Of a stretch of DNA of 22,653 nucleotides, positions 6,381 to 22,653 are shown in pieces (the first letter of the stretch is position 1; every line of letters begins with the position of its first letter). The DNA comes from a virus. A program made the position numbers and the translations under genes. The stretch covers positions 1 to 22,653 of the IMG/VR virus record IMGVR_UViG_3300042328_000403; one strand, written 5' to 3'. Under the pieces are notes generated by a model. The model was not told the DNA's origin and ran no database searches. It was given only the letters and a program-made list of their open reading frames with translations.

Positions 6381-6385
6381 AGTAG

Positions 6386-6446: not shown

Positions 6447-6478
6447 AACAGAGCAGAGACCGAAGCCTCTGCTCTGTT
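6447..6478 (-). terminator. Rho-independent terminator with UUCG tetraloop
   Basis: A 14-pair stem (6447-6460 with 6465-6478) closed by a four-base loop that reads UUCG in minus-strand RNA with a C-G closing pair, the extra-stable tetraloop. The stem ends in a run of U (UUUU at 6448-6445). The only irregular position is 6459/6466, a G·U wobble in minus-strand RNA but an A·C mismatch in plus-strand RNA, which points to the minus strand as the functional one. It lies 11 bases beyond the stop of the 105-residue gene. Confidence 0.88.
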
Positions 6479-6488
6479 GTTTGGATGG

Positions 6489-6806
6489 TTAGATTAGTTC
6501 TAACTCTGTGACAATTTGGTTGTCGTACCATCTCGTCTGTCCTTTGTCCTCACGGACTGTGGTGGTCATATAGCCTGAGCAATTGACTGGGACTTCTGGT
6601 GTCTCAGTGATGGCTTGGCGTAGTAGTGTGACAAGTGCTGGGTCATAGATGGTCACTTGGCGTGATGCGATAAAGCGTGAACGGATATTGCCATCAGGTG
6701 TGCGTTCGGTCTGGCGTGACTGAACTTGACCTGTGAGGAAATTACCACGGTCATTGATTGACTTAAGCAGTGCATTGTTGAAACTGAACTTGTTTGCGTA
6801 CTCCAT
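6489..6806 (-). CDS. 105-residue hypothetical protein, possible OB-type fold
   Basis: The product begins MEYANKFSFNNALLKSIND. The start at 6806 is supported by AAGGAGAATAAA just upstream. The longer frame to 6935 runs into the preceding gene and a hairpin. The sequence alternates strand-like segments (NFLTGQVQSRQTER, SRFIASRQVTIYD, VNCSGYMTTTVRE, TRWYDNQIVTELEL), suggesting a small beta-barrel. A single-strand DNA-binding OB fold is a possibility I cannot prove. It is the second gene from the leftward promoter and is closed by a strong terminator, so it is probably expressed early and strongly. Family not recognised. Confidence 0.72.
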   Translation of the reverse strand: MEYANKFSFNNALLKSINDRGNFLTGQVQSRQTERTPDGNIRSRFIASRQVTIYDPALVTLLRQAITETPEVPVNCSGYMTTTVREDKGQTRWYDNQIVTELELI

Positions 6807-6829
6807 TTTATTCTCCTTAGTTATTTGTG

Positions 6830-6863
6830 GGCGAAGCCCCTGTCGCTTGCGACAGGGCTCGCC
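6830..6863 (-). other. GC-rich hairpin between the first two leftward genes
   Basis: A long stem with two single-base bulges: the core 6839-6845 pairs with 6850-6856 around a CTTG loop, and the flanks 6830-6838 pair with 6857-6863. It has no U-run after it on the minus strand (CCACAAAT), so it is not a standard intrinsic terminator. It may stabilise or process the mRNA, or be a Rho-type pause site. Confidence 0.5.
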
Positions 6864-6871
6864 GTTCGGAC

Positions 6872-7360
6872 TTAGTAGCAAATTGGACAGTTGTCCAGTG
6901 ATTTGCCGTTGTAGTAGAGGTGGCAAGATGGGCAAGCCACTTCATAGTCAAGAACAGTGACTGAAGTTTCTAGGTCATTGGGAATCCTGTCTATCAGATT
7001 ACTGATAGGAGGAAGGAACTCATAGCGTTCGTCAACTATAGTTCCGTCAACTGTTCTGTATGGTCGGGTCAGTTTGGTGACTGCTCCAACCCAATCGTGA
7101 GCGGTAGGCTCATCACTAGGTGATGAGAGTGGTCTAGGCTCAGCCATACTGCCACCGCTAGCAACAGCATGGTTAGGCACCTGATTGAGAACAGTGCCTT
7201 TGAAGGTGGAAATCAGATAGTCGTAGTTCTCATCAACTATCTGATGGGCTGAATAGATATCCCGACAATCCTTGGCGTCAAGGCAGTCAGGGCAGAGTTC
7301 GTTAAGGCTATAGCACTGATAGCATATATTGGTTATGGCTATACCTAGCGATTCTGACAT
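6872..7360 (-). CDS. 162-residue protein with zinc ribbons at both ends
   Basis: The first gene of the leftward operon. Its N-terminal part has C13-x2-C16-x6-C23-x2-C26 with a further C32. Its C-terminus has C143-x2-C146 and C158-x2-C161 (CPSC, CPIC). The middle is polar and Pro/Ser-rich (PRPLSSPSDEP) and then strand-like (TRPYRTVDGTIVDERYEF). Two separate four-Cys sites joined by a linker suggest a nucleic-acid or polymerase-binding protein. As the first gene after the promoter it could be a regulator, though this is inference. The ATG at 7360 has AAGGAA 4 bases upstream. Family not recognised. Confidence 0.78.
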   Translation of the reverse strand: MSESLGIAITNICYQCYSLNELCPDCLDAKDCRDIYSAHQIVDENYDYLISTFKGTVLNQVPNHAVASGGSMAEPRPLSSPSDEPTAHDWVGAVTKLTRPYRTVDGTIVDERYEFLPPISNLIDRIPNDLETSVTVLDYEVACPSCHLYYNGKSLDNCPICY

Positions 7361-7372
7361 AGGTTCCTTTCC

Positions 7373-7395
7373 ATATATAAGTATCTCTTATATAT
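7373..7395. repeat. AT-rich perfect inverted repeat over the leftward -10 region
   Basis: ATATATAAG and CTTATATAT are exact inverted copies around TATCT. The right arm overlaps the proposed -10 box of the leftward promoter and the left arm lies just before the SD, so a dimeric repressor or a leader hairpin could act here. Confidence 0.65.
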
Positions 7396-7421
7396 ACTTC
7401 CCTCATAATCAGGGGTGTCAA
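7391..7421 (-). promoter_or_regulatory. Leftward sigma-70-type promoter
   Basis: On the minus strand an exact TTGACA (7421-7416) is followed after 19 bases by TATATA (7396-7391). AGTATA at 17 and GTATAT at 18 bases spacing are alternatives. Start of transcription would be near 7385, leaving a ~25-base leader with AAGGAA before the ATG at 7360. The -35 lies within the 7408-7454 palindrome and the -10 within the 7373-7395 one, a layout that suggests regulation. Confidence 0.62.
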
Positions 7422-7454
7422 GTCAGATGCTTTTCCTGACTTGATGCCCCTGAT
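7408..7454. repeat. 19-bp inverted repeat overlapping the leftward -35
   Basis: Arms 7408-7426 and 7436-7454 around a 9-base loop (ATGCTTTTC). Seventeen of 19 positions are Watson-Crick pairs. The other two are G·U wobbles in plus-strand RNA but A·C mismatches in minus-strand RNA. There is no U-run after either arm, so it is not an obvious terminator. It could be an operator, a cruciform-forming origin element, or an RNA hairpin on an unseen plus-strand transcript. Confidence 0.75.
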
Positions 7455-7459
7455 ACTTA

Positions 7460-7492
7460 CAGCCAGCGATTCCGTTATTAATCAGCCAGCGA
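7460..7492. repeat. Direct repeat CAGCCAGCGA, two copies 23 bp apart
   Basis: Exact copies at 7460-7469 and 7483-7492. A 23-base period places them roughly on the same DNA face, as in tandem regulator or initiator sites. Two copies are too few to call iterons. Confidence 0.5.
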
Positions 7493-7541
7493 CAGATGTA
7501 TTTATAGGGCGAGGTCAGCGCACCTGACTGAGCCAGAGATA

Positions 7542-7578
7542 GTATCCTGCCAGGCACCTGCTGATACAGGACAGCCTG
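7542..7578. repeat. Nested palindromes
   Basis: GTATC (7542-7546) pairs with GATAC (7563-7567) and encloses CAGG-CA-CCTG (7551-7560). Directly adjoining is CAGG-ACAG-CCTG (7567-7578). A related GTCAG-N5-CTGAC lies at 7514-7528. Repeated CAGG/CCTG half-sites suggest a protein-binding cluster. Confidence 0.45.
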
Positions 7579-7703
7579 CCTACTTGTCTTGTTCTGTTCT
7601 GTATAGTTCAGACCCTAGACTATTTAAATCGGCGCAGACTTAAGTATTGTTACTCTATAAAAGATTTTTCCGTACAGAGCCTGTGCCCCTGTTCTGTCCT
7701 ATT

Positions 7704-7733
7704 TTGTCCTGATTAGACTGTTATCTGTATAAC
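7704..7733 (+). promoter_or_regulatory. Candidate rightward promoter
   Basis: TTGTCC (7704-7709) and TATAAC (7728-7733) separated by 18 bases, the best -35/-10 pair I can find on the plus strand before the terminase. This would leave a structured leader of ~160 bases. The match is moderate and other AT-rich sites nearby could serve. Confidence 0.35.
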
Positions 7734-7787
7734 AATTTCGTTATAAACCGTTCGGAATGGCTGTTTGAACGGGTTAATACTATATAG

Positions 7788-7831
7788 GGGCACAAAGTGC
7801 CCACTGGTAGTAGCAAGCCTTGAGGGCTTGC
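7788..7831 (+). other. Two tandem hairpins in the terminase leader
   Basis: GGGCAC-AAA-GTGCCC at 7788-7802 and GCAAGCC-TTGAG-GGCTTGC at 7813-7831 are both perfect stems. Neither is followed by a U-run. They lie between the candidate promoter and the proposed terminase start, within the part of the frame I regard as untranslated. Confidence 0.55.
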
Positions 7832-7896
7832 GTTACAGACTGTATCTCTATCTGTATCTGACAGCCTGTACAGACTATTGCAGATGGGACAATACT

Positions 7897-9780
7897 GTGA
7901 CTTTTCAGACTAGTAATAACCCTAGGACAAAGGCTATGGCAGAGGCCAAGGCTAAAGTCTTAGCCCTTGTATCTGAGGGTATGCCTGTACATAGGGCTAT
8001 GGAGCAGTTGGGCAAAAAGCCAGACACTGTCCGTATCTGGATATCTAGGGATAAGAAGTTTGCTCAGGATTTGGCTGACGCCAAAGAAAGCGCTAAAGAG
8101 AACTCCCTAAAAGCGCTAGGGGTAGCCCGTGAGGATGTATCCTTCCCACAGTTCTCTGAGATGTTTCTTGACCAGAAGGTCTTTCCTCACCATCAGGACT
8201 GGATTGACCTACTAGAGGGTAAAGACCCTAGTTGGCTCCACCCTAATATGATTTACGAGCCTGGCGATAAACATCGCCTCCTTGTAAACGTGCCGCCTGA
8301 GCACGCTAAGTCCACCGTAATTACGGTGAATTACTCTACCTACCGCATCGCGCTAAACCCCAATGTTAGAATCATCGTAGTTTCTAAGACGTTAGTCAAA
8401 GCACGGGAATTCGTGTACGCGATAAAGCAAAGGTTAAGCCACCCGCGCTGGTTGAAGTTGCAGACAACTTTTGGACCAGAAGGGGGATGGAAAGAAGACT
8501 CTGATACCTGGCGTGTTGATACCGTCTATCTGGGTAACGATGCTCGTGATTCATCTGAAAAAGACCCGACTATTCAGGCACTCGGTATGGGGGGTCAAAT
8601 CTATGGTGCCCGTGCTGACCTGATTATTCTTGATGACTGTATAACCACAGCCAATGCTCACGAACACGAAAAGCAGATTAACTGGCTACAGAAAGAAGTT
8701 ATTACCCGTCTGGGTAAGAATGGTAAGTTGCTGGTGGTAGGGACCCGAATTGCGGCAAATGACTTTTATAAAGAACTCCGTGACCCGAAGCATTGGTCAA
8801 GCGGCAAAAGCCCATTTACGTATATGGGTATGCCTGCTGTTTTACAGTATGCTGATAAGACGAAAGACTGGACCACGCTCTGGCCTAAATCGGATGTTGC
8901 CTGGGATGGCGATGCGGACACCCCAGATGCGGAGGGATTATATCCTAAGTGGGATGGTCCGACCCTTGCACGGCGCAGAGGCGAAGTTACTCCGTCTACG
9001 TGGGCTCTTGTATATCAGCAAGAAGATATAACTGAAGATTCTATTTTCCCGCCTGAGTTGGTTCAGGGTTCTGTTAACGGTATGCGTAAGAGAGGTCTGT
9101 TAAGACCTGGCGCTGCTGGACATCCAACGCAAGTTGAAGGTTATACCGTAGTTGGTTTTGACCCTGCTATGGCAGGGCACGCTGCTTTTGTGGCTATGAC
9201 TTACAACAGGATGGATGGAAAGATTTATATATTGGACTGCCTAAATATGGCAGAGCCAAACCCACAGAAGATTAGGCAGGCAATAGAAGACTTTGTCCAG
9301 AAATACAAACCGCAAGAACTTAGAGTTGAAATCAACGCCCACCAAAAAGCCTACGCCCTCGATACAGATTTACAGCAATGGCTGGCAACTTATGGCGTTC
9401 GCCTCAATGCTCACTTCACTGGAAAAAACAAATGGGACACAAACTTTGGTGTCGCATCTATGTCAACGCTCTTCGGAACTGTCGCCAATGGTAAACACCA
9501 AAAGAACAATATTATCGAACTCCCTTCTACTGAAGGTTCTGAGGGACTTAAGGCTTTAGTACAACAACTACTTACTTGGAAGCCTGAAACTAGAGGTAAG
9601 ACTGACTGCGTGATGGCTATGTGGTTTGGTGTTCTTAGATGTCGTGAGTTTATGCAACAGAACTCTGTAGTGCAAAGGTATGCCCATAATCGTTGGGCTA
9701 CAAGAGCACAGTCACAAAAACGTTATAGTGTTAATCTAGATGAAATGATTGCCGAGCAATGGCAACAAACATACGGGTAG
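7897..9780 (+). CDS. terL: Terminase large subunit
   Basis: The ATP-driven motor and nuclease that packages DNA into the head. With the GTG at 7897 the product is 627 residues. It has an N-terminal helix-turn-helix-like segment (about 24-52, SEGMPVHRAMEQLGKKPDTV), which may replace or assist a small subunit. The ATPase has a Walker A PPEHAKST at 133-140, Walker B LIILDD at 242-247 and a coupling motif LVVGTR at 279-284. The C-terminal RNase H-type nuclease has D422 (GFDPAMAG), E478 (RVEIN) and D570 (KTDCVMAMW). The start is uncertain: GGGA lies 7 bases before the GTG, and an ATG at 7936 has AGGA 8 bases before it. The ATG at 7765 is rejected because it would translate two hairpins and a repetitive LYLYLYL stretch. 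No separate small terminase gene is visible. Confidence 0.93.
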   Translation: MTFQTSNNPRTKAMAEAKAKVLALVSEGMPVHRAMEQLGKKPDTVRIWISRDKKFAQDLADAKESAKENSLKALGVAREDVSFPQFSEMFLDQKVFPHHQDWIDLLEGKDPSWLHPNMIYEPGDKHRLLVNVPPEHAKSTVITVNYSTYRIALNPNVRIIVVSKTLVKAREFVYAIKQRLSHPRWLKLQTTFGPEGGWKEDSDTWRVDTVYLGNDARDSSEKDPTIQALGMGGQIYGARADLIILDDCITTANAHEHEKQINWLQKEVITRLGKNGKLLVVGTRIAANDFYKELRDPKHWSSGKSPFTYMGMPAVLQYADKTKDWTTLWPKSDVAWDGDADTPDAEGLYPKWDGPTLARRRGEVTPSTWALVYQQEDITEDSIFPPELVQGSVNGMRKRGLLRPGAAGHPTQVEGYTVVGFDPAMAGHAAFVAMTYNRMDGKIYILDCLNMAEPNPQKIRQAIEDFVQKYKPQELRVEINAHQKAYALDTDLQQWLATYGVRLNAHFTGKNKWDTNFGVASMSTLFGTVANGKHQKNNIIELPSTEGSEGLKALVQQLLTWKPETRGKTDCVMAMWFGVLRCREFMQQNSVVQRYAHNRWATRAQSQKRYSVNLDEMIAEQWQQTYG

Positions 9781-9786
9781 GATTAA

Positions 9787-10746
9787 ATGGCAAAAAAGAA
9801 TCCATTAAATAAAGATTTAAAAGAAGTCATTAAGGAGTTACCTAAGGCTCCTGGTGGAAATGTTGCTCAGCCACGACCATTAGTTCCTGGCGGCATTCAA
9901 GGCGGACCACCTTTAGTTACTTCTTCTATTCCAGGTGCTACTCCTGCAGGCCCTACTGGTGAAGTATTTACAAAGAGCGACCCTGCTCGTGATTTATTTA
10001 AGTTTTACAAAACTGGTGTAGATAGACCTTTAGATATGCCAGCAGAACCTGTTGATTTAGAAACAATTGAAGAAAAAAAAGTAAAACCTACTGGCGCAAA
10101 AGGTTCTAAAAAAACTCAAGAACGTTTAGAAATTGCAAAAGGCGTTCGTGGTGGAACCATTGGCGGTATGACTAGAGCACCTGGTTCTAAACCATCATTA
10201 GCAAAATCTTTGCCGATGGCTATTGAAATTGCAATGGAACGCACTAGAAGAAGAATAGAGTTAGAAACAATTCAAGAATCTTTAAGAGATGCATTAATTG
10301 TTGAACGTGGAGAAAAAACCACTACTTATGTAAGTGACCCTAATTCACCTAAAGCAGGTGGAATAACTAGAGATGAACAAAAAATTATTGACCGTGCTGC
10401 TCAAGCAATAAGAGATGCTTTATTAGATAGAGATGCTGCTATTAGAGAAGCAGTAATGATGCGTGATGTTAATACTGGAGAAGTAAATCCTTTAGCGCAG
10501 TCAGTGACACAAAGTGAAGCAGACCGCCGTGCACTTGAAGGAATAAAAGAATTTGAAAAAACTGTTGGCAAAAAACCAAAAACAAAAAAACCAGTTTCTA
10601 CTTTTAAACCACCCATAGTTGGTGGCAAAGGAATGGCTGCATTTGGTGCTGTAGGTTTAGCATTAGATGCTGTTTTGCTATGGAGACAATTAATACAAGA
10701 AACAGAAATACAACGACAACAAATACAATCTGAAACTATGAATTAA
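9787..10746 (+). CDS. 319-residue hypothetical protein between terminase and portal
   Basis: A Pro/Gly-rich and probably disordered N-terminal third (about 20-65), a Lys-rich linker, a long charged helical region (about 138-265), and one hydrophobic segment at about 282-299 (GMAAFGAVGLALDAVLLW) followed by a Gln-rich tail. The ATG has AGGA 4 bases upstream and follows the terminase stop by 6 bases; the portal gene follows after 8 bases. It is notably poorer in GC than its two neighbours (about 32% in the 60 bases at 10021 against 58% at 8941). Family not recognised. It may be a virion protein with a membrane-active tail or an inserted gene. Confidence 0.78.
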   Translation: MAKKNPLNKDLKEVIKELPKAPGGNVAQPRPLVPGGIQGGPPLVTSSIPGATPAGPTGEVFTKSDPARDLFKFYKTGVDRPLDMPAEPVDLETIEEKKVKPTGAKGSKKTQERLEIAKGVRGGTIGGMTRAPGSKPSLAKSLPMAIEIAMERTRRRIELETIQESLRDALIVERGEKTTTYVSDPNSPKAGGITRDEQKIIDRAAQAIRDALLDRDAAIREAVMMRDVNTGEVNPLAQSVTQSEADRRALEGIKEFEKTVGKKPKTKKPVSTFKPPIVGGKGMAAFGAVGLALDAVLLWRQLIQETEIQRQQIQSETMN

Positions 10747-10754
10747 GGATAGCA

Positions 10755-12488
10755 ATGTTATCAATTGAGCAAATTTCAGCACGTGTTGAGAATCTACGCC
10801 AACGTGCTGCAGAGCGCGATTCGCGCCAACAAGATGTTCTTGCTGTCCGTAAAGGTCAGATTGCAACTGTATATCCAGATTTTTTTCCTGAAGGCGTAGA
10901 TGCCAATGTTGTTGCAAATTTTATTGATATTGTTGCGCGAGACCTTTCCGAGGTTATGGCGCCTTTACCATCAGTCAACTGTTCGGCAGCGAATCAGGCT
11001 AATGACCGCGCTCGTAAGTTTGCTGACACCCGCACTCGTATTGCTACTAATTATTTTGCTAACTCGGACTTGCAAGTCCAGATGTATACAGGAGCCGATG
11101 TATACATAACATTTGGTTTCGTTCCGTTCATAGTTGAACTAGACGAAGAAGCAGGGCTGCCGCGTATCCGCATAGAAAACCCAGTGGGCGCTTACCCAGA
11201 GTTTGACCGCTATGGTCGCTGCATTGCCTTTGCAAAACGCTACTATATGGCTATAGGCGAAGTTGCCTCACAGTTCCCTGAGTATGCGAATATCTTACTT
11301 GGTAAAGAAATGTACAAGTCTGATATGACGGCACAAATTGAGATTGTTCGTTATTACGATGAAAGTCAATCTGTGCTTTATGTCCCTGAGCGCAATAATC
11401 TATTACTATCCCACGCCAAGAATCCTCTTGGCAAGATGATGGTTGTTGTTGCTAAGAGACCATCTATTGATAATGAGATGCGTGGTCAGTTTGATGACGT
11501 GCTCGGTATTCAGTTGCTTCGTAATAGGTTCGCATTACTTGCGATGGAAGCAGCGGAGAAGTCCGTGCAAGCACCAATTGTTCTACCATCAGATGTCAAT
11601 GAACTTGAAATGGGTGGCGATGCTGTTATCCGCACCGCTAACCCTGCTGGTGTACGCCGTGTTGATTTAAATATTCCACCTGGAGCATTTACTGAACAGG
11701 CTTTACTACAGCAAGAATTAAGATTAGGGACACGTTATCCAGAGGGAAGAACTGGAAACATTGATGCCAGCATCATCACAGGACAAGGTGTGCAGGCACT
11801 TATGGGAGGCTTTGACACACAGGTTAAGTCTGCTCAGGCTATTTTTGCTTCAGCGTTACGCGATGTTATTTCTGTTTGCTTTGAGGTTGATGAGAAGTTT
11901 TTTGATTATGAGAAGACTATCCGTGGTGTAGATGCTGGTAGCCCATATCAAATCACTTACAAGCCAAGCAAAGATATTAAGAAAGATTACTCAGCCGATG
12001 TTCGTTATGGAATGTTGGCAGGACTTAACCCAGCACAGGGTCTTATCTTTATGTTGCAAGCCCTCGGTGGCGGTTTAATTTCTACCGACCTTGCTATGCG
12101 TGAACTACCATTTGGTATTAACGTAACACAAGAACAAGAAAAAATTGAGATAGAGAATATGCGTAAAGCATTAGTTCAATCTTTACAAGCGTATACTCAG
12201 GCTATACCGCAGATGGCTGTTCAAGGCGCAGACCCATCTACAATTATTAAGAAAATTGCTGATGTAATTAAATCACGCCAGAAAGGTGTGCCAATTGAAG
12301 ACGCTGTTGAAGAAGTCTTCGCTCCAGAATTACCTCCTGCTGGCGCACCACAGGTTGAGCAAATGTCCCCTGCTCCCGCTGCGCCAGTGGGAGGCGCCCC
12401 TCAACCACCTTCACTACAAACATTATTATCCAGCCTAAGCGCTGGAGGAGAAGCAAGCGCTAGCGCCAGAACTGCTATACGGAGGTAA
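10755..12488 (+). CDS. Portal protein
   Basis: The ring protein at the head vertex through which DNA is packaged and ejected. The assignment rests on its position after the terminase, its 577-residue length, the N-terminal block with VVANFIDIVARDLSEVMAPLPSV, the mid-part strand region (RIRIENPVGAYPEFDRYGRC), the IQLLRNRFALLAMEAAEKSV helix (portal wing/stem type) and the following DVNELEMGG and PPGAFTEQ segments. It resembles the SPP1-gp6-like portals of actinophages. The C-terminal 45 residues are Pro/Ala/Gly-rich and probably disordered. AAGGATAGCA gives a clear SD. Its GC content is above that of the genes on either side. Confidence 0.85.
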   Translation: MLSIEQISARVENLRQRAAERDSRQQDVLAVRKGQIATVYPDFFPEGVDANVVANFIDIVARDLSEVMAPLPSVNCSAANQANDRARKFADTRTRIATNYFANSDLQVQMYTGADVYITFGFVPFIVELDEEAGLPRIRIENPVGAYPEFDRYGRCIAFAKRYYMAIGEVASQFPEYANILLGKEMYKSDMTAQIEIVRYYDESQSVLYVPERNNLLLSHAKNPLGKMMVVVAKRPSIDNEMRGQFDDVLGIQLLRNRFALLAMEAAEKSVQAPIVLPSDVNELEMGGDAVIRTANPAGVRRVDLNIPPGAFTEQALLQQELRLGTRYPEGRTGNIDASIITGQGVQALMGGFDTQVKSAQAIFASALRDVISVCFEVDEKFFDYEKTIRGVDAGSPYQITYKPSKDIKKDYSADVRYGMLAGLNPAQGLIFMLQALGGGLISTDLAMRELPFGINVTQEQEKIEIENMRKALVQSLQAYTQAIPQMAVQGADPSTIIKKIADVIKSRQKGVPIEDAVEEVFAPELPPAGAPQVEQMSPAPAAPVGGAPQPPSLQTLLSSLSAGGEASASARTAIRR

Positions 12489-12490
12489 CT

Positions 12491-12742
12491 ATGGCACCGC
12501 GGAAAAAAAAACCACAGCGCACACGTAAACCGCGTACTGTAGCAAATGAAGAATATACAGAGTTAGAAATGTATTGCATCTGGCTTAATGAATACTACAA
12601 GTCTTTACTTAAGGCAGGATTTACTAGCGAGTTAGCGTTAAGTTTTGTAATGGAAAAATCTTCTTACCCAAGTTGGGTAGCGTATAAAGCGCCTACCGAT
12701 GAAGAGTTAAAGAAATATCTAGATGAAGAGGATGAGGACTAG
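12491..12742 (+). CDS. 83-residue hypothetical protein, basic N-terminus and acidic end
   Basis: A GGAGG box 5 bases before the ATG, overlapping the portal stop region, gives a strong start. The first 16 residues are very basic (APRKKKPQRTRKPRTV), the core is aromatic and helical (ELEMYCIWLNEYYKSLLKAGF), and the end is acidic (EELKKYLDEEDED). A charge-polarised small protein after the portal may bind DNA or the head interior, or link portal and shell, but no family is recognised. Its stop overlaps the next GTG by one base. Confidence 0.75.
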   Translation: MAPRKKKPQRTRKPRTVANEEYTELEMYCIWLNEYYKSLLKAGFTSELALSFVMEKSSYPSWVAYKAPTDEELKKYLDEEDED

Positions 12743-13131
12743 TGGCAGATATTGCAGAAAAGGTTTCTGGGATTGGTTCTATGTCTGAAAGAACAGACCT
12801 AAATGTTTCTCAACAGCCAGCACGTTATATCTCTGGAATGCCATATGGTGAAGGTCAGGCTACTTATAATCAACAAACTGCTGCTCCTATGGCTGGAACA
12901 CCTGAAATTTTTAATAGTCCAATTACATCTTTAACTGCTCCAACAAATCGTCCTAATGAACCTATTACTGCAGGTGCAGACTTTGGCCCTGGACCTGGTT
13001 CAAATATTCTTAATCTTCCAAAAAATACACAACCAACAGTTCTTAGTGTATTAAGACAAATTGCACAAAATGACCCTAGCGGTGAAACCGAATTAATTTT
13101 TCAATCTATGCTTGAAAAAGGTATTGGATAG
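12742..13131 (+). CDS. 129-residue hypothetical protein, mostly disordered
   Basis: GTG start overlapping the previous TAG by one base (TAGTG), with GAGGA a few bases upstream. The first 95 residues are rich in Pro, Gly, Thr, Asn and Gln (AAPMAGTPEIFNSPITSLT, GADFGPGPGS), typical of a flexible segment. A C-terminal helix (SVLRQIAQNDPSGETELIFQSMLEK) may be a docking site. Its stop overlaps the next GTG in the same way. It may be a minor virion or linker protein. Not recognised. Confidence 0.72.
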   Translation: MADIAEKVSGIGSMSERTDLNVSQQPARYISGMPYGEGQATYNQQTAAPMAGTPEIFNSPITSLTAPTNRPNEPITAGADFGPGPGSNILNLPKNTQPTVLSVLRQIAQNDPSGETELIFQSMLEKGIG

Positions 13132-16100
13132 TGCCAGAAATAATTGACCCTTCTGTAGCCGAACTTAGCCCTAATCTTTATAAGGCTGCACGTAATGCTG
13201 GACTATCGTCGCAATCGGCTAAGTTTTTAAACCAAATGAGTAAGCAATATAAAAAAGGTGAAAACTTATTAAAGTTAAGTGAGTCTGCTGCTCGTGTGAA
13301 ATTTTTAGATTTAGACCCAAAAGTTCAAGAAAACATACGTTTATTTTTTCCTAACCAAAAAGTGTTTGACCCTGAAAAAAGCGCAATAAGAGAATTTGTT
13401 GATATGACTGTTGCAGGATTTTTTTCTCCATTAAAATTAGTAACAAGTCCAATTATGGCTGCGCTTGACAAACTAGAGCAATGGGAAAAAACAACTAAAA
13501 CTCCTTATTCCTTAGCACGTCAGACTCAAGAAGCAGATAAAGCAAGACAATTAAATTTACCAGTAGTTAAACGTCCAGATTTTAATCCTGGCATCATAAA
13601 AGATATTTATGATGGCAAGAATAATTGGAAGTGGGACAAAGTAGATATGTATGAGCAACGCTACGGCGTAGCGCTTACTACTTTGGCTAGAGGTATTGCT
13701 GAAGGAAGAACTGTTGGTGAGTCTATTGAGTTATTTGGTAACTCTGAAGACCCAGAAATTATGGCTGCTGTTGTATTTATGTTTGATAAAGAACAAGAAT
13801 TTAATGTTATTAAAGATGGTTTAAAAATTGATGCTCAAATTTCTCCAGGCCGTGATGCAATTGAACCATACGGCTCAATTGGCAAAGTAGTTGAAGGTAA
13901 TTACTGGCAAGGCGTAGCACAAAGATTACTTGGTACACAGCCAAGAATTATTTTACCTCCAGATATATCGCCTGATAGTAAGCGTGGTAAATTACTCTTG
14001 AAAGAAGAAGAATTAAAAGTTAAGAAAAGATACTCTGGCGCCATAGATGCTTTTTATACTATTTTTATAGACCCTATAACTTATTATGGTTTTGGTCTTG
14101 GAGGAGTAGCAAAAACTCTTGCTAAAGGTGTTGGTGGTATTCGCGTTGGAGTTCGTGAAGCATTTCAACAATCAGCCTTAAAGACTAGAGGTCAACGTCT
14201 TGCTGAGCAGTTTAAATTTGTATCTGAGCGCAAAGGTGTAGAGGAAGGGTATGCGTGGTTATTTAATGAACCAGAAATTAAAACTCTTTGGGATAACCAA
14301 TTAGGACCACGGTTAAAGTCTTTATCTGAAACTGACTCTCCTTCTGCTAAAGCCTCAATTATTGAGTCTATGAAATTTGATTTTCCAGATTGGTATGAAG
14401 ATAAAGTTATAAAGACTTTGGTTGATAATAAAACGTTTGATGCTAAAAGCGCTCAAAAGTTTTTTACTCACGTAGATGACGCTAACCTTATGCTTAACGG
14501 CAGAGTTAATGGTATTTCATTTCGCCGTAATGGCATACCTTATGCCCGTAAAAGCAGAACTCTTACCTCTGCTATGCACCGCGTAGCCTATGCGGTTTTT
14601 AATCCTTCTAGTGAAATTGATATAACCACTAAAGCAATTTTAGAAAAAGGCGATGCAGAAGCAGCAAGGGCTTTATCTATTATTACAAAGGTTGCTGATG
14701 AAGAAAATAATCTTCTTAATCCTGCAATTAATGATTTGTTTGAGTTACAAGCAGATGTTGGTAAAGCACGTAGGATTGCTTTAAAACTAGGAACTTCTGC
14801 CAGTAGAATTCCTGGACCCATTAAGTTTGGCGAGAACGCCATTGAGACTGCAGACAATATTCGCAATACTGCTAATTTAGTTTTACCTAAAAATATTGCT
14901 AATGCTGTAACTATAATGCTTTTAGACCAACCTTTAGATATTCAATTAACGGCTGTCCGTAATATGCAATATGCATTTATGAAAAGACTAAATGTTCCAG
15001 AAGAAGATATTCAAAAAATTCTTCAAGATACATACAATGGTCAGGCTGGTTTTACTCCTGTCATAGATATGCCGCTTGCGGCCAACGTTGCATCTCAAAT
15101 GCATCCAATGGCAGTTAACTTTATGAATGGTACGCCTACACTTGCTGCTACTGGCGCTATTGAACCATCGCAATTACGTAAAGGTATTAAACAATTACCA
15201 TTTGATTTAATTTACCAATTATCATCTAAGGCCAATTTGGATAAGATGCAAAAAGGTACTCCAGTAAGAAATTTTCTTTTATTGTTTAACGGAGCGACAA
15301 GAAGCCGTGCTGTTGGTATTTATAATACTAACTGGGCAGCCTATACATTAGCCCCGCGTTTGGGTATTAGAACTAATGTTGACGAAGGTTTCTTTTACTT
15401 GATGACAAAACCGCTTACTGACATACTTGATTTTGTTGCTAGTAAATTTCAAAAAGACATTAAAGGTATGCAGGCTGTTACTGGTAGCAGCGATGCTATT
15501 GGCCCTTGGAAAGGGTCTATGTATTACCTTGCAAACAAGGCTGGTATTAAAGTAGATGGTCGACCAATAGACCCAAGACAAATTTTAACGCAGCCACAAC
15601 TTGCTAATGTTCTAGAAGAACTTAGGGCTCGTATATCTAAAGATGTTGGGTATGAGGTTCCTATGTCAGAGATACAGCCAGCATTTATTAAAGAAGCAAT
15701 TATTACCCGAGTGGAACAAATACTTAAAGTAGATAGCCCAGAATGGAAGAACTGGAAACGCGTATTGCGTAACAACCCTAACTTTGCAGAGGCTATGACA
15801 GCATCTATGGGTGCTCGTGATTTAATTGCTGGCAGGATGGATAGAGATTTCTTTGACTCTGTTTTTAATGTAGACCAATTAACTTTATTTATTAAAGAAC
15901 TAGGGTTAGAACGCTCAGGACTTTATACTCCTAAAGAGATAAAAAAGATGAGTGAACTAGAACTTGGTATTTCTATGTGGGACAACTTTGCTATTCGTTT
16001 TGGTTTTAATCAAATTAAATTAATTGGCAATGATTATCTTGACCCAGTAAGTGTATTCTATAAAAATAATGGTTTAAAGAATGATGACTTCTTTGGCTCT

Positions 16101-18569
16101 ATGAAGCCAAGTAGTAATTTTTCTAGCGCACGAACTGAACTTATGGAGCAAATGGGTGCAACCTATAATGAAGCAACTGCTATGTACGACATATTGGATG
16201 CTAAAAAACTACAAGCAGCCCTATCCAACTTTGGCGAAACTGTATATTTCCGTCAGCAAAATGTATCAGACCCAGAAATAGCACGTATTTATGCAGAACG
16301 TATATTGAATGATATGCGATTTGCTTTCCACGGCAGCGCAGATGGGTTTAACGAAGACTTATTCCAATTGATGCAAAAGAAATATGCAGAGGTTATTAAA
16401 GCGGCTAGCCGTCAAAAGAAGCCAGTTGCTAATGCTTGGTCTCGTGCTGCTAATAATTTAACTTGGAAAGAATTTGATGAGGCTACTGTAGGTAAGCGTC
16501 CCTTTTCTGGCTATATAAATACTCGTTTAGTAGGAAATGGAAAAGTTGTTGACTTAGATAACCTTAAAGAAGACTTAGGTACTCTTGAAAAAATGTATGC
16601 AAAATTTCCAGATATGGTTCTTGAAATGATGGACCGTCAAGTAACAGGTTTTTTCCGTTTACCAGCAATGCGTGTGGCTATTAACAAAGCCTTTGACGAT
16701 TTAAAGCCTTATGAGAAGATGTTATCTGACCGTCATTATAATGCAATGCTAGAGGCTAAGCCTTTTATGAAGCCTGAAAAGGCTAGAGAAAGGGCTGATG
16801 AGATGGCAGAAAAAACTGTAAGTAACATTGCGGTTAATATGGCTACTGATTCTGTACTAGAGTTTGTTGATAATCCTAATATCCGCTCTAACTTTGCTTT
16901 ATCTATTCGATATGTAAGCCGATTTTTCCGTGCTACTGAAGATTTTCAACGCCGTGTTTATCGTCTATATACAAAAGAAACACCAAAAGCGCTAATGCGT
17001 TTACGTCTTTTGCACTATGGTCTAGAAAATATGGGCTCTGTATATGAAGATGAGAATGGCGATGAGTACTTAACAATGCCTACAGATATTGTTATGAATA
17101 CCGCTATTCAAAAAACACTTAGCGCATTTAATATTGATTACAAAGTTGGTTCTTTTAATGAGTTTGCATTTAAGTTTCGATTAATTAATCCATCTTTTGC
17201 TCCTGATGCTGGGCAACCAGCCTTTGCTGGTCCAATAGCAGGGTTAAGCATTACCGCTTCTAAACGGTTCCTTCGTGATTTACCAGTTGTAAGTGCTTTA
17301 TTGCCAGCAAATTGGGAAGATAAAATTTATCCTTGGACTAACGAAGCAGCCGATTATTTAGATAAGTTTGCTATGGGTCACATTGGTCAAAATACTGATA
17401 TTGGCGAAGCACTAAGAATGGCTTTTCCAATGATGGCTGTTTCTGCCTGGGATGCTTTGTCTCCAGCAGACCTTAATAAAAATAAAGGCAATGCTGTATT
17501 TCAGGGTATATCTTATTTAGAAGCATTTGGCAATGGTGTACCAGAAAATGCTGATAGCAAAGAAAAAAGACAGTACTTGCAAAATTTAAAGACTGCTGCT
17601 GGCAATGTAACTCTTGCCCAAGCAATGATAGGTATGTTAAATCCAGCCTATCCAAGTCTTAAAGATAGCAAAGGTTTACCAGACTTTATTAAAGAAAATG
17701 GTATTAGTACTTGGAGCAGTGCTTTTTGGGACATTTATGAAGGTGTAATAAAAACAAGTCCTGAAGTAACAAATCCATTTGAGTTAGCAATTGCTATGTT
17801 TATTGGCGATAATCCAGGTAAGGCTGTTTATACAATACCTAAAACGAACAAAGCCTTTAAGGCAGTTATAGCAAAGACCGATGAACTAAAACAATGGTCT
17901 ATAGATAACAAACGCTTTATAGATAACTACAGTGAGTCTGGGATTGGTTTTATATTTTCGCCTAAAGTAGGAGAATACAATCCAGATATTTATGGCTGGA
18001 TGGAATCTCATGGATTAATTAAACGTGCTGACTTTGCTGAGTATTTAAACAAAGTTCAGATAGCCAGAGACAAAGAAAAGTATTATGCAATCAATGATGC
18101 ACTAACAGAAAAGTTAGCCAATGCTACTGACTATCAACAACGGCAGAGTTTAATTGCTTTGGCTGATGCTGAACAGCAAGCATTGTTACTTTCTAATCCA
18201 GAGTTAGAAGATTCATTAGATGACAATATATCTGGTCGTGATTTAAAGACTATGTTTAGAGATATTAAAGGTGCTATAGATGATAAAACATCACCTATCT
18301 CAAAAAATACTAGAATTGCTATGCGTCTTGCAATTAATGAAGTTCAAGGTTTTGTTGATTATTCAACTAACCCAGCCTATGGACAGTTGTATACATTTTC
18401 GGATGACCGTAAACGTATGAAGGAAGAAGTTATGGCAATTCTTGGAGAGTTAGCCTTTGACCCATCAGTTAAAGAAGCAACCCGTCTAATATTTGTTCCT
18501 ATGTTAAACAAGTATTCCCGTGATGTAATGGGTGCTTCTATAGAAAGGGCGTATGTCCGTGGTAGATAA
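13131..18569 (+). CDS. Giant 1812-residue virion-type protein, function unknown
   Basis: One uninterrupted frame of 5.4 kb with a GTG start (TAGTG overlap), nearly a quarter of the window. It is mostly helical. A weakly hydrophobic part lies at about 300-335 (SGAIDAFYTIFIDPITYYGF) and others at about 1365-1440 (PIAGLSITASKRFL, MAFPMMAVSAWDAL), but there are no clear permanent membrane spans. I see no polymerase, protease, lysozyme or kinase motif. The C-terminal 200 residues are charged and helical. By size it could be a T7 gp16-like ejected protein or a fused minor head protein, since it occupies the portal-scaffold interval where SPP1-like phages encode the MuF-type protein. A tape-measure role is less likely: the position is too early and no heptad or hydrophobic tape pattern dominates. 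Low GC compared with the portal. Confidence 0.75.
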   Translation: MPEIIDPSVAELSPNLYKAARNAGLSSQSAKFLNQMSKQYKKGENLLKLSESAARVKFLDLDPKVQENIRLFFPNQKVFDPEKSAIREFVDMTVAGFFSPLKLVTSPIMAALDKLEQWEKTTKTPYSLARQTQEADKARQLNLPVVKRPDFNPGIIKDIYDGKNNWKWDKVDMYEQRYGVALTTLARGIAEGRTVGESIELFGNSEDPEIMAAVVFMFDKEQEFNVIKDGLKIDAQISPGRDAIEPYGSIGKVVEGNYWQGVAQRLLGTQPRIILPPDISPDSKRGKLLLKEEELKVKKRYSGAIDAFYTIFIDPITYYGFGLGGVAKTLAKGVGGIRVGVREAFQQSALKTRGQRLAEQFKFVSERKGVEEGYAWLFNEPEIKTLWDNQLGPRLKSLSETDSPSAKASIIESMKFDFPDWYEDKVIKTLVDNKTFDAKSAQKFFTHVDDANLMLNGRVNGISFRRNGIPYARKSRTLTSAMHRVAYAVFNPSSEIDITTKAILEKGDAEAARALSIITKVADEENNLLNPAINDLFELQADVGKARRIALKLGTSASRIPGPIKFGENAIETADNIRNTANLVLPKNIANAVTIMLLDQPLDIQLTAVRNMQYAFMKRLNVPEEDIQKILQDTYNGQAGFTPVIDMPLAANVASQMHPMAVNFMNGTPTLAATGAIEPSQLRKGIKQLPFDLIYQLSSKANLDKMQKGTPVRNFLLLFNGATRSRAVGIYNTNWAAYTLAPRLGIRTNVDEGFFYLMTKPLTDILDFVASKFQKDIKGMQAVTGSSDAIGPWKGSMYYLANKAGIKVDGRPIDPRQILTQPQLANVLEELRARISKDVGYEVPMSEIQPAFIKEAIITRVEQILKVDSPEWKNWKRVLRNNPNFAEAMTASMGARDLIAGRMDRDFFDSVFNVDQLTLFIKELGLERSGLYTPKEIKKMSELELGISMWDNFAIRFGFNQIKLIGNDYLDPVSVFYKNNGLKNDDFFGSMKPSSNFSSARTELMEQMGATYNEATAMYDILDAKKLQAALSNFGETVYFRQQNVSDPEIARIYAERILNDMRFAFHGSADGFNEDLFQLMQKKYAEVIKAASRQKKPVANAWSRAANNLTWKEFDEATVGKRPFSGYINTRLVGNGKVVDLDNLKEDLGTLEKMYAKFPDMVLEMMDRQVTGFFRLPAMRVAINKAFDDLKPYEKMLSDRHYNAMLEAKPFMKPEKARERADEMAEKTVSNIAVNMATDSVLEFVDNPNIRSNFALSIRYVSRFFRATEDFQRRVYRLYTKETPKALMRLRLLHYGLENMGSVYEDENGDEYLTMPTDIVMNTAIQKTLSAFNIDYKVGSFNEFAFKFRLINPSFAPDAGQPAFAGPIAGLSITASKRFLRDLPVVSALLPANWEDKIYPWTNEAADYLDKFAMGHIGQNTDIGEALRMAFPMMAVSAWDALSPADLNKNKGNAVFQGISYLEAFGNGVPENADSKEKRQYLQNLKTAAGNVTLAQAMIGMLNPAYPSLKDSKGLPDFIKENGISTWSSAFWDIYEGVIKTSPEVTNPFELAIAMFIGDNPGKAVYTIPKTNKAFKAVIAKTDELKQWSIDNKRFIDNYSESGIGFIFSPKVGEYNPDIYGWMESHGLIKRADFAEYLNKVQIARDKEKYYAINDALTEKLANATDYQQRQSLIALADAEQQALLLSNPELEDSLDDNISGRDLKTMFRDIKGAIDDKTSPISKNTRIAMRLAINEVQGFVDYSTNPAYGQLYTFSDDRKRMKEEVMAILGELAFDPSVKEATRLIFVPMLNKYSRDVMGASIERAYVRGR

Positions 18570-19458
18570 GTCTCCAGATACAGCAAAAAATCGCGGCGAA
18601 AAAGAAAGTGCCGCTGCCGCTGCTGCAACAAAGAAACGCCGTGAATTAGAAGCCCAGCATATAGCAGACCTTAAACGCATACTCGGTGATATAGGTCAAG
18701 ACAATGGTTTGTTAACGGTTGGCACAGACCAAAATAGCAACCTTGTTTTATATGAAGAGGTTCTTGATAAAAAAGGAAAACCAACAGGTCAAAGAAATGA
18801 AGTATTTTTTTGGGTTGACCCAGATGGAATTGGGTTTAGAAAAAAATACGGTTCAGACGTTATTAAAACTATAAAGACCAATTTTAAAGGAAATCTTGAA
18901 GTATTACGTAAACAGTTATTTGACAAGGATTTTCTTTCTGAAAATGATTATACGACTAAAAATGAAACATCTTTTAATCAGGCTATTTTAAATGCTGCTA
19001 GAAACCATACATTAACTCAAGTACAGTCTTATACTATTGACGGCAAAACAAAATTTAGTCCGTTTAAAAATTGGCTAAGTGGTTTAGGTGCCGTTAGTAA
19101 AGATAAAGATGGTAGCCAATATCCACTTCGTGACATCAATATGATGGACCGTAATGTAGTCGAGGCTATTGTTAGAGATTCTTATTCTGACACAACAGAT
19201 ATGTCTCCTGACGAAGCAGATGCTTTTATACAACAAAAAACAGATATGTATATGAACCAAATTAAAGAAGGTACTTTAACTACCCTTAAAAAAGAAGGTG
19301 GAGTTACTGTTCGTAAAACGACTAAACCATTTAGTGAAGCACAAGTACGAGCAGAAATACCAGAATTAATTAAAAAAGAACTTCCTGGGGCTACAGATAT
19401 GAAAACAAGTTTTGACTTCTTAGCATTTCTCGATGGATTAGGAGCACCAATAGCATAA
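18553..19458 (+). CDS. 301-residue probable virion protein
   Basis: The ATG at 18553 has AAAGGG a few bases upstream and overlaps the giant gene by 17 bases. An in-frame GTG at 18559 is an alternative. The product has a charged Ala-rich helix at the start (KESAAAAAATKKRRELEAQ), a strand-rich middle (LVLYEEV, EVFFWVDPDGIGFRKKYG) and a C-terminal region with MSPDEADAFIQQKTDMYMNQ and a final FLAFLDGLGAPIA. The gene is joined to the next by TAATG. I read it with the three other large proteins here as one structural set. No enzymatic motif seen. Confidence 0.75.
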   Translation: MSVVDKSPDTAKNRGEKESAAAAAATKKRRELEAQHIADLKRILGDIGQDNGLLTVGTDQNSNLVLYEEVLDKKGKPTGQRNEVFFWVDPDGIGFRKKYGSDVIKTIKTNFKGNLEVLRKQLFDKDFLSENDYTTKNETSFNQAILNAARNHTLTQVQSYTIDGKTKFSPFKNWLSGLGAVSKDKDGSQYPLRDINMMDRNVVEAIVRDSYSDTTDMSPDEADAFIQQKTDMYMNQIKEGTLTTLKKEGGVTVRKTTKPFSEAQVRAEIPELIKKELPGATDMKTSFDFLAFLDGLGAPIA

Positions 19459-20399
19459 TGGCACCTACACCAGATGAACTAGAACGAGCAAGAATTAAAG
19501 CAGCAGCCGAAGCAAAGGCCAAGGCAGATGCAGCAGCAGCAGCAGCAAAAACAGCAGGCGATGCAGCGGCACTAGCCCTTGGTATTACTGAGGTTTTAAT
19601 TAAAGCCTTTCCTGAACTACAATCTATCTTTGATGATTTTGCTAAAGGTAATATTGCTAAAGCAAGATTAGATTATTTTAATTCTAATTACTTTAAAAAC
19701 TTAACAACTACTGCTCAAACCCGTCAGGGAAAAAAGGCTACCCAACCTGGAGTTTATGCTCAAGAATTTGATGCTTTTAAGGCAGAGCAAAAGAAAAGAT
19801 TAATAGCCAAAGGCTTTATGTGGAATCCACAAATTGAGGCTTTACTGGAAGATTCTTTTCTTAAAGGACATACTGATACTCAATTAGAAATTGCTATCCT
19901 TAACTCTGGCAAAATGGGTAGTAAAATTGGTGGCAGTGCTTTAGGTACTGTTAATGCCCTTAAAGATTATGCAGATGACCAAGGCGTAAACAAAATTCTT
20001 CCTAAGTCTTATTGGGATAAAATATCTATGGGACTATTAGACGGTTCATTAACTGATGAAACTATTAAAGAAGAACTAAAAGGTTTTGCTATATCTGCTT
20101 TTCCAGCCTACGGTAATGGTATACAGGCTGGTCGTTCATTTTCATTACAGACATCGGCGCTACGACAGACTATTGCTAATCTACTAGAAGTAGATGTGGA
20201 TACTGTCACAAATGATAATCCAGTCTTCAAAGAATTAGTTGGATATCTTAACCCTAAAACTCAAGCACCAGAAATAGTGCCATTATGGCAGGCTGAAAAA
20301 ATTATTAAAAGTAAAGATGAATGGAACTATACTAAAAATGCTAGGGATACTTATGACAATCTTGGCCTTAAAGTACTTAGAGATATGGGGCTAGCATAA
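19458..20399 (+). CDS. 313-residue actinophage-type structural protein
   Basis: The TAATG junction with the previous gene supports translational coupling. The N-terminal 45 residues are an Ala-rich helix (KAKADAAAAAAKTAGDAAAL). The C-terminal half has segments I associate with a recurrent actinophage structural family: FPAYGNGIQAG, then a tract ending LLEVDV, then VPLWQAEKIIKSKDEWNYT and KNARDTYDNLGLKVLRDMGL. The memory of that family is approximate and no accession can be given. The protein is probably packaged in the virion and may act with its two neighbours during DNA delivery. Confidence 0.75.
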   Translation: MAPTPDELERARIKAAAEAKAKADAAAAAAKTAGDAAALALGITEVLIKAFPELQSIFDDFAKGNIAKARLDYFNSNYFKNLTTTAQTRQGKKATQPGVYAQEFDAFKAEQKKRLIAKGFMWNPQIEALLEDSFLKGHTDTQLEIAILNSGKMGSKIGGSALGTVNALKDYADDQGVNKILPKSYWDKISMGLLDGSLTDETIKEELKGFAISAFPAYGNGIQAGRSFSLQTSALRQTIANLLEVDVDTVTNDNPVFKELVGYLNPKTQAPEIVPLWQAEKIIKSKDEWNYTKNARDTYDNLGLKVLRDMGLA

Positions 20400-22238
20400 A
20401 TGGCAGATATAAAGTTTAATCCAAACTTACCAGTACACTATGGCGAAGTGGTAAAAGCCGAAAGACCTAGAAGCACTGGCTTAACTTTAGTTCCAATAAA
20501 TCGTTATAGCGGTAGAGCAGTTGTTGATACCGATGTTGCATACTATGGAAATAAACCAGGCGATGTTATTGAGCGACTTTTCAAAGACGGAATACCTGCA
20601 CAAGGTTTTATTAATAACAAATTTTATAGAGATGGGCAAGAATTATCCGCAGAGCAAATTCAGGCTCAAACAATTGAAAATGTAATTGATATTACGGGTC
20701 CACTTGCTACTCTTGGTTTAAGAGAAGCAAGAGGAATAGCAGGTGAAAAATTTGTCCGCGATGCTGAAGCAGAAAAGAGATATGCTGAATTAGTTAGAAA
20801 AAGTGGAAGAGATTATCTTGCAAAAAAAGGTAACTTAACTATTCCTGGCTTCGCATATATTGCAAGCGCTGACAGTATGTCACCAGAAAAATATGCCAAC
20901 TATTTAATTAACCTTTCCGATGAAGAAATTATTGCAAATGTCGGCGGTGTAAACAAAGAAAACATAACTGCTAGTAGGTTTGGTATAAATGCTACGATGG
21001 GTTATCCTGCAGGGGTAGCCTTCACAGAGTATGTTCAGGGTTCTCGTGTTATTGACATACCAGACATACTTGCACTTGCTAAAATATCTTCCAATCCTGG
21101 AGACCCTCAGCAAGGTAATGCAACCAAACAACTTATATCTATCTTTGAAAATGACTCGTCTTTTAAAAGACGGGAACAGGCAAGAGATGCACTATCTTAC
21201 GGTCTTCCTGGTTACACTGGTAGTCCTGGAGGTGCCAAGGGCGTCTACGGAGCAGACCGACCTAGTGGCACTAATAGTCAAGGAATAAATACATCTACGG
21301 ACCCAGCAACAATGGCTTTAATTCAATCTTTACAAAGCCAAATAACATCTTTGTCTGCAAGTAATCAACAGGCTGCAATGGATAAAGCAGCAGAAGTTGC
21401 AGCAGCCAAAAAAGAAAAGGCTGAAAGTGCTATTGCTGTTTTAACAGACCGTTTTAGTAGATATGGTTTGGCTAGCCTAGTTCCTAAAATAAAAGAGTTG
21501 GCTATTGGTGGTGCTGGTGAATCTACTATTACTTTACAGTTGCAAGAAACAGAAGAATATCAACAACGTTTTCGTGCTAATAAAGAACGTATTAAAAAGG
21601 GTTTAGCCGTACTTGACCCTGCAACTTATATTGGTTTGGAAGACAAATATCGGCAAGTGCTTAAGTCTTATGGGTTAAAACAATTTGATAACGATGATTA
21701 TGTAACTCAATTTCTTGAGAACAATACTTCTGTTGATGAAGTGGCTAGTCGTATAAGTCTTGCTGTTGACCGAGTTAAATTTGCAGACCCTATGATATTA
21801 GAAACTTTACGTACATATTATCCTAACATTAATGATACTGATTTAGTTGCTTATATGTTAGACCCTAAAAATGAAGAACCTAAATTAATGCGTCAAGTTC
21901 AAACAGCAGAAGTAACAGCAGCAGCCAGAATGCAAGGCTTAACCCCTGGAAAACAATATGCAGAAGAACTTGTTGGCAAAGGTGTTACTAAACAAATGGC
22001 TCAAAAAGGTTACGCAACTATTGCGGATATTCTTCCTACTGCTGAAAAGTTGTCTGATATTTATGGAACAACATTGCCTGGTTACCGCCAGACTCAAGCA
22101 GAGGATGAAGAATTTACTAAGTTAGCCTCAGCGAAACGTAAACGTATAGCACTTATTGAAAGAGAAATAGCCGAGTTTGGTGGACAGTCTGGTGTAGGCA
22201 GAGGTTCATTAGGAAAACAAACAGGCGGTACATACTAG
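20400..22238 (+). CDS. 612-residue modular probable virion protein
   Basis: Begins directly after the previous stop. Three parts can be seen. Residues 1 to about 260 are a mixed region. From about 270 to 305 a Gly/Ser/Pro/Thr linker (YTGSPGGAKGVYGADRPSGT) leads into a coiled-coil-like helix at about 315-345. From about 348 to 465 lies a conserved-looking helical domain: DRFSRYGLASLVPKIKEL, then EEYQQRFRANKERIKKGLA, then YIGLEDKYRQVLKSYGL and VDEVASRI. The YQxRF...GL...YxxLExxYR pattern recurs, to my recollection, in structural proteins of other actinophages. The tail is Gly-rich. It could be a head-associated or ejected protein. Last gene before a 120-base gap and the scaffold. Confidence 0.76.
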   Translation: MADIKFNPNLPVHYGEVVKAERPRSTGLTLVPINRYSGRAVVDTDVAYYGNKPGDVIERLFKDGIPAQGFINNKFYRDGQELSAEQIQAQTIENVIDITGPLATLGLREARGIAGEKFVRDAEAEKRYAELVRKSGRDYLAKKGNLTIPGFAYIASADSMSPEKYANYLINLSDEEIIANVGGVNKENITASRFGINATMGYPAGVAFTEYVQGSRVIDIPDILALAKISSNPGDPQQGNATKQLISIFENDSSFKRREQARDALSYGLPGYTGSPGGAKGVYGADRPSGTNSQGINTSTDPATMALIQSLQSQITSLSASNQQAAMDKAAEVAAAKKEKAESAIAVLTDRFSRYGLASLVPKIKELAIGGAGESTITLQLQETEEYQQRFRANKERIKKGLAVLDPATYIGLEDKYRQVLKSYGLKQFDNDDYVTQFLENNTSVDEVASRISLAVDRVKFADPMILETLRTYYPNINDTDLVAYMLDPKNEEPKLMRQVQTAEVTAAARMQGLTPGKQYAEELVGKGVTKQMAQKGYATIADILPTAEKLSDIYGTTLPGYRQTQAEDEEFTKLASAKRKRIALIEREIAEFGGQSGVGRGSLGKQTGGTY

Positions 22239-22358
22239 ATTCCTGACACGGACCGACCAGCCCCGTGCAGTGTATAAGACTGGTAGCAAGAGCCAGCCTG
22301 CCCTCCCCTGAGCAGAACTGTGGCTTGCGACTAACAACGAATAGAAAGGGTGGTTGCT

Positions 22359-22653
22359 ATGAGCAACAACTACTGGGATGAAGAAGACGACGAGGTAGAA
22401 GTACCTGAACATCAACTAGATGGCGATGCTTTAGTCAAAAGACTAAGAAAAGCCAAACGTGCTGATGAGAAGCGTATCAAGGAACTGACCGAACAACTTG
22501 AAGGATTCGTCAAGGAAAAACGGCAACAAACTGTCTCCGAAGTCCTGGCTAAAAAAGGAGTAAACGCTAAGGCTGCACGCCTTATTTTGAAAGATGTAGA
22601 GGATGCCACAGAGGAATCTATTGATTCTTGGCTCCGTGATAACGGAGATTTAA
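22359..22653 (+). CDS. Capsid scaffold protein, C-terminus cut by window edge
   Basis: The first 98 codons of a gene preceded by AAAGGGTGG about 6 bases from the ATG. The product has an acidic start (MSNNYWDEEDDEVEVPEHQ), a coiled-coil helix (LVKRLRKAKRADEKRIKELTEQLEGFVKEK, about residues 25-54) and a helical end with TVSEVLAKKGVNAKAARLI and EESIDSWLRDNGDL. This acidic head, coiled coil and xxWLxxNGDL tail is the usual form of actinophage scaffold proteins, which template the procapsid and are then lost. The major capsid gene is expected just beyond the right edge. The 120-base gap before it has only short inverted repeats and no convincing promoter. Confidence 0.78.
   Translation, partial: MSNNYWDEEDDEVEVPEHQLDGDALVKRLRKAKRADEKRIKELTEQLEGFVKEKRQQTVSEVLAKKGVNAKAARLILKDVEDATEESIDSWLRDNGDL

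Follow-up and report, generated by a model that had tools for sequence, protein, structure and literature searches.

The genes lying between portal and scaffold in the window, by which we mean the whole stretch of DNA analysed (22,653 bases from a freshwater phage in IMG/VR), probably encode a set of DNA-ejection (internal virion) proteins of actinobacterial podoviruses that is non-homologous to the known ones. Judged from sequence comparisons, the block would function like an ejection set, while descent from the T7, P22 or N4 families is not supported. Alignments of related genomes show, in addition, that the block is swapped between phages as one cassette with its borders at portal and scaffold. 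On a wider proposal our judgement is evenly balanced: that these phages carry an actinobacterial ejection machine unrelated to those of T7, P22 and N4, with interchangeable wall-cutting or wall-binding cargo on common carriers, and that co-circulating phages of the same strain, near-identical in their head and packaging genes, exchange it wholesale as a single cassette.

Layout and relatives of the block

Four open reading frames fill positions 13131-22238, in exact agreement with the first-pass annotation, and the close joining that it described is borne out: the giant and the 301-residue gene overlap by 17 nt, the 301- and 313-residue genes by 1 nt, and the 313- and 612-residue genes lie end to end. 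To these four a fifth can be added, a cysteine-free 129-residue gene (12742-13131) overlapping the giant by 1 nt. The portal and scaffold earlier named as flanks were both recovered by the profile matches given below, and a terminase (PHROG 38) also lies upstream, before the portal.

10755..12488, + strand: portal, left flank (PHROG 104, E 2e-30)
12742..13131, + strand: 129-aa protein (PHROG 8200), probably a small fifth member; left breakpoint of the cassette within or adjoining it
13131..18569, + strand: giant, 1812 aa, GTG start, no cysteine; probable main ejection protein
16695..18512, + strand: conserved C-terminal region of the giant (about residues 1189-1794), common to E7 and, weakly, to Streptomyces gp9
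16851..17210, + strand: highest conservation within the giant, residues 1241-1360 (from a profile of 90 giants and an alignment)
18553..19458, + strand: 301-aa protein with C-terminal module M2 (residues 82-288, bases 18796-19416; iterative HMM), counterpart of FlowerPower gp10
19458..20399, + strand: 313-aa protein, Ala-rich head (residues 1-45) and module M3 (PHROG 6654, residues 22-313)
20400..22238, + strand: 612-aa protein, whole gene, variable N-terminus and module M4
20400..21437, + strand: variable N-terminal part of the 612-aa protein (residues 1-346)
21453..22214, + strand: module M4, conserved C-terminal part of the 612-aa protein (PHROG 8424, E 4e-76)
22350..22652, + strand: start of a scaffold-like gene, right flank (DUF4355/Gp46, E 8e-5)

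The description of these genes as four unknown proteins holds in that the reading frames are real, but they are not orphans, for the block recurs in other phages. Dozens of contigs preserve the whole frame of the giant, at identities of 95, 62, 38 and about 25%, so that it is not a chance product. The nearest relative (L001/G001, 39,693 bases) has a portal 99.8% and a giant 95% identical to those of the window. At least 600 IMG/VR matches were returned by the portal search, and the cultured phages matched fall into two groups only: the Streptomyces Beephvirinae (cluster BF), with portals 44-45% identical to the window's, and OX376640/OX376641, at 76%. These two accessions belong to the Planktophila phages E7 and F5, whose isolation host was 'Ca. 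Planktophila' strain LanE-43 (PMC10202952). BF phages are described as podoviruses in one report (PMC13097060), as is the BF phage Abafar in another (PMC11536984). Dozens of IMG/VR contigs, E7/F5 and the Streptomyces BF phages have the same slot order of portal, small genes, giant, one to three mid genes, one last gene, scaffold and capsid, with giants of about 1580-1900 aa. Between E7/F5 and the BF phages, gene order is conserved together with homologous portal, TerL, M2, M3, M4 and capsid. A small contiguous operon of several proteins including one large one, as found here, is a feature of podoviral ejection sets.

An actinobacterial host is likely for the clade, because WhiB occurs in 23 of the 28 records examined (the window fragment and four relatives including G001 had no match) and because the cultured members infect Planktophila and Streptomyces; from the clade we infer such a host for the window's phage as well. 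WhiB is found in Actinobacteriota and their phages. A search of GTDB genome contigs for relatives of the portal or the giant found none, and hence neither a prophage nor a direct host assignment.

Four clades of giants were compared by HMM-HMM alignment, with reversed sequences and foreign proteins as controls. Scores from an alignment mixing three of the clades (A3) were set aside and the test was repeated with clean groups. The window clade matched the Streptomyces gp9 giants (P 2e-5, 434 columns in register, score 58) and the L080 clade (P 2.5e-4, 474 columns, score 50), and the F5/L074 clade matched the gp9 giants (P 5e-12, 664 columns, score 110); window and F5 clades did not match significantly (P 0.017). 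Given that the controls reached a maximum score of 36, the giants of the slot are probably related in their C-terminal third. The E7 giant matches the window's directly (26% identity, E 1e-35). In the profile of 90 giants, residues 1241-1360 of the window's protein read DNPxIRSNFAxSxRxVGRFYRATEDFxRRxYRL...

Beyond this slot, the giant matched nothing in Pfam, PHROG, NCBIfam or PDB sequences, whether alone or as a family. Comparisons of the kind proposed by the first-pass annotation, with T7, P22 and MuF proteins, showed no kinship. Profile comparisons of the giants with T7 gp15/gp16, P22 gp16, N4 gp50, epsilon15 gp17, phiKMV gp37 and crAss001 gp44/gp47 stayed at control level, as did hhalign comparisons of M2, M3 and M4 with the ejection proteins of T7, P22, N4, phiKMV and epsilon15 relative to reversed controls, and the block contains no Pfam Phage_Mu_F domain at E up to 1. 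A confident assignment of the giant to a family of tail or tape-measure proteins, named at the outset as the result that would speak against ejection, was looked for and not found; as a tape-measure protein the giant was rejected, with no PHROG or Pfam match, none to lambda gpH, and cultured BF relatives that are podoviruses. AlphaFold gave a poor, mostly helical model of its last 812 residues (pLDDT 67.5, pTM 0.34), which found no usable structural match among PDB folds. In hydrophobicity the giants peak at a median KD19 of 1.42, equal to T7 gp16 (1.44) and under a usual transmembrane threshold.

Several side observations concern the window and its relatives. Histidine is scarce in the block (13131-22238), at 0.39% against 1.43% in the other window proteins. 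The terminase-portal interval holds a cysteine-free 319-aa gene (9787-10746), absent as a conserved gene from most relatives and possibly another exchangeable gene; in the Streptomyces BF phages this slot is taken by the endolysin. A 162-aa protein (6872-7360), probably zinc-binding, has nine cysteines in CxxC-type pairs, against none in the portal-scaffold block of the same genome. On the minus strand, a 145-aa protein (4789-5226) is transglycosylase/lysozyme-like by eye, with no Pfam match, and relatives show weak SLT matches in short frames on the minus strand or in the early region. Many relatives (L022, L032, L070 and others) carry an optional 180-190 aa gene between portal and small genes, and in one (L079:3113-7871) the giant is divided between two frames that overlap, 768 and 827 aa long, through a frameshift, a sequencing error or a real split.

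Cysteine depletion

The window's four proteins contain no cysteine in 3038 aa, a result for which chance alone, at the rate of the portals, would give a probability of about 1e-7. Among relatives, none was found in 85 distinct giants (148,912 aa) or in 100 copies of the small gene directly upstream of the giant (13,863 aa); the mid genes hold one in 31,790 aa and the last genes one in 30,156 aa, jointly two in 61,946 aa. The portals of these relatives contain 193 in 37,360 aa, or 5.2 per 1000, and in full relatives the rates per 1000 are 6.6 for TerL, 5.1 for portal and 7.4 for a 735-aa tail gene. The giants form 20 single-linkage groups at 50% identity, which means both that the counts are not independent and that the loss does not stem from one recent lineage. 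In gp11 of FlowerPower and Immanuel3, the sole cysteine sits in the DCSGLV motif of NlpC/P60, where this family has its catalytic residue.

Reference phages behave similarly. The ejection proteins of T7, P22, N4, Sf6, epsilon15 and phiKMV have 6 cysteines in 14,000 aa (0.43 per 1000), with four in those of epsilon15, against 90 in 14,382 aa (6.3 per 1000) in the portal, capsid and tail proteins of these six phages. The signature is unspecific for ejection, because the lambda tape measure gpH has no cysteine in 853 aa and two tail genes of the present phage group have only 0.7-1.3 per 1000. This means that cysteine loss marks channel-passing or extracellular proteins and not ejection proteins alone.

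Modular proteins and cassette exchange

Iterative HMM searches defined three modules shared with the Streptomyces phages. M2 is represented by the window's 301-aa protein and FlowerPower gp10, M3 by the 313-aa protein and both gp11 and gp12 of FlowerPower, and M4, found in every block version searched, by the C-terminal part of the 612-aa protein and by gp13. M2 and M3 are fused into one gene in several relatives. Such a fusion (L027, 483 aa) was modelled by AlphaFold at pLDDT 84.6; the model had no fold match in the PDB and, among viral models, matched FlowerPower gp12 (E 2e-9) and a 271-aa protein of Manuel (E 2e-5). Common ancestry of the three modules was considered and is unsupported: the M2-M3 match consists of 32 columns where the models overlap in fused proteins, and the rest is at control level.

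The N-termini of these proteins vary. FlowerPower gp11 joins an N-terminal NlpC/P60 domain (1.7e-29) to M3, gp12 an N-terminal SLT domain (3.6e-5) to M3, and M4 proteins of three freshwater relatives (L128, L137, L161) begin with LysM, so that the architecture of N-terminal wall module and constant C-terminal module is directly observed. In the nearest relative, the N-terminal part of the M4 protein is unrelated to residues 1-346 of the window's. A peptidoglycan hydrolase domain was looked for in the window's own block and none was recognised. The first reading of the window had not anticipated that the 301-, 313- and 612-residue genes are modular proteins with swapped N-termini.

Since hydrolases are common on the tails of phages of Gram-positive bacteria, the block might instead supply external or distal tail components, such as needle, adsorption or wall-digesting parts. 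GenBank indeed labels gp11 and gp12 of the BF phages minor tail proteins, but the label is an automatic domain annotation. Tail genes in these phages are poor in cysteine too, yet the tail-like genes (PHROG 7578, a fibre gene and PHROG 11667) form a separate run downstream of the capsid, and a giant of 204 kDa that is mostly helical and lacks the beta-rich features of fibres would be unusual for a short tail. We consider a tail role unlikely.

Exchange of the whole block, likewise not anticipated, is shown by flanks that stay alike around a divergent interior. L003 and L004 have identical portals (100%) and giants only 32% identical, and giants fall below 45% in 21 of the 42 pairs whose portals are at least 97% identical. 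The DNA of L040 is 86.7% identical to the window up to base 12747 and 98.6% from 22223, with one short match (67%) between. Between E7 and F5, DNA identity is 96.3% as far as E7 base 8372, where it stops inside the homologue of the 129-aa gene, and 97.7% from 16922. Their '8 kbp genomic island', described as hypothetical genes without homologues in the other phage of the pair (PMC10202952), is the portal-scaffold block. The M3 and M4 genes of both island versions belong to common families, and the two giants are linked only indirectly. A second variable region, with fibre-like and repeat-rich genes, follows the capsid in the nearest relative (G001 bases 4979-13447; L087) and corresponds to the second island reported for E7/F5. 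Because E7 and F5 infect the same strain, host range at strain level is not determined by the cassette on its own.

Some injected proteins, such as the N4 virion RNA polymerase and T4 Alt, act after injection. Were the block's products likewise effectors working in the cytoplasm, in host take-over or counter-defence, and not parts of a conduit, their size, their cysteine loss and the rapid allelic replacement in same-strain phages (E7, F5; PMC10202952) would fit an arms race. This we judge very unlikely: the giants have no enzyme domain, the hydrolase and LysM modules indicate the wall, and the conserved M2-M4 argue for a role in assembly.

The ejection reading and known systems

In the ejection reading, the block's proteins would be produced as one translationally coupled set and stored inside the head, probably over the portal. 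Upon adsorption they would pass through portal and short tail at least partly unfolded, which would explain the loss of cysteine, and then regain their fold within the wall and membrane of the cell, or spanning them, as a route for the DNA. Wall-cutting or wall-binding modules would sit at the N-termini of the smaller proteins, the constant C-terminal modules serving as putative carriers. In the window's version, the N-terminus of the 612-aa protein might, speculatively, be the wall-contact domain, because its block holds no recognisable hydrolase.

The location of tail-type genes elsewhere, after the capsid, was counted in favour of an ejection role. Counted against it were the lack of any sequence match to known ejection proteins or PDB fold match, the low specificity of cysteine loss, the missing hydrolase in the window's own block, and the unusual portal-scaffold position. 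Ejection genes usually lie downstream of capsid and tail genes, whereas the block is encoded before scaffold and capsid; this order is usual, not defining. Nor is a peptidoglycan hydrolase universal in podoviral ejection sets, P22 having none. SPP1-like phages encode a MuF-type protein beside the portal, but that the block, in the same position, makes proteins that stay in the head (core, MuF-like or maturation helpers) is scarcely credible, as it has no MuF or protease domain (E up to 1) and its hydrolase fusions and cysteine loss would go unexplained. The original suggestion of an ejected complex for crossing the actinobacterial envelope gains strong circumstantial support from the hydrolases in the Streptomyces slot, LysM in some freshwater relatives, cysteine loss and the actinobacterial host range.

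If the ejection reading is true, actinobacterial podoviruses possess an ejectosome of their own, unrelated in sequence and differently placed in the genome, for which Abafar, Immanuel3, FlowerPower, E7 and F5 offer culturable models. A major variable island in the first phages brought into culture for an abundant order of freshwater bacteria would gain a physical meaning, and phages with near-identical heads would be exchanging the entire injection machinery. An almost complete loss of cysteine seems to offer an inexpensive, general marker of proteins ejected via the portal; among ejection proteins it is in print for N4-like virion RNA polymerases only, where it was proposed to aid passage through tail and periplasm (PMC3715699, PMC3915230).

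Among the closest known systems are the Streptomyces BF podoviruses (Beephvirinae: FlowerPower, Immanuel3, Manuel), whose gp9-gp13 follow the window's order (TerL-x-portal-small genes-giant-280-433-430-370-scaffold-capsid). M2, M3 and M4 are homologous, and the BF giant, gp10, gp12 and gp13 likewise have no cysteine. The BF giant is only weakly similar to the window's (C-terminal third, P 2e-5), two hydrolase-M3 genes stand in place of the window's one hydrolase-free M3 gene, and, unlike in the window, a tRNA array follows gp13. The Planktophila phages E7/F5 carry a giant, an M3 gene and an M4 gene in the same slot, all without cysteine. MuF-type minor head proteins (SPP1 gp7) share the portal-scaffold position, but the block is far larger, comprises several proteins and has no MuF domain.

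T7 gp14/15/16, P22 gp7/20/16 and N4 gp50-52 are likewise contiguous sets of three to four cysteine-poor proteins, one of them a giant and some with an N-terminal hydrolase. They have no detectable sequence relation to the block and lie after the tail genes, whereas the block precedes scaffold and capsid and its hosts are Gram-positive. According to a 2022 review, ejection proteins occur in podoviruses that infect Gram-negative bacteria and are lacking in the phi29-like phages of Gram-positive hosts (PMC8954989). In the same account (PMC8954989), the hydrolase is swapped modularly between homologues of T7-type gp15 and gp16, and gp16 refolds after passage; the block is in keeping with that style, without homology to the T7-type proteins.
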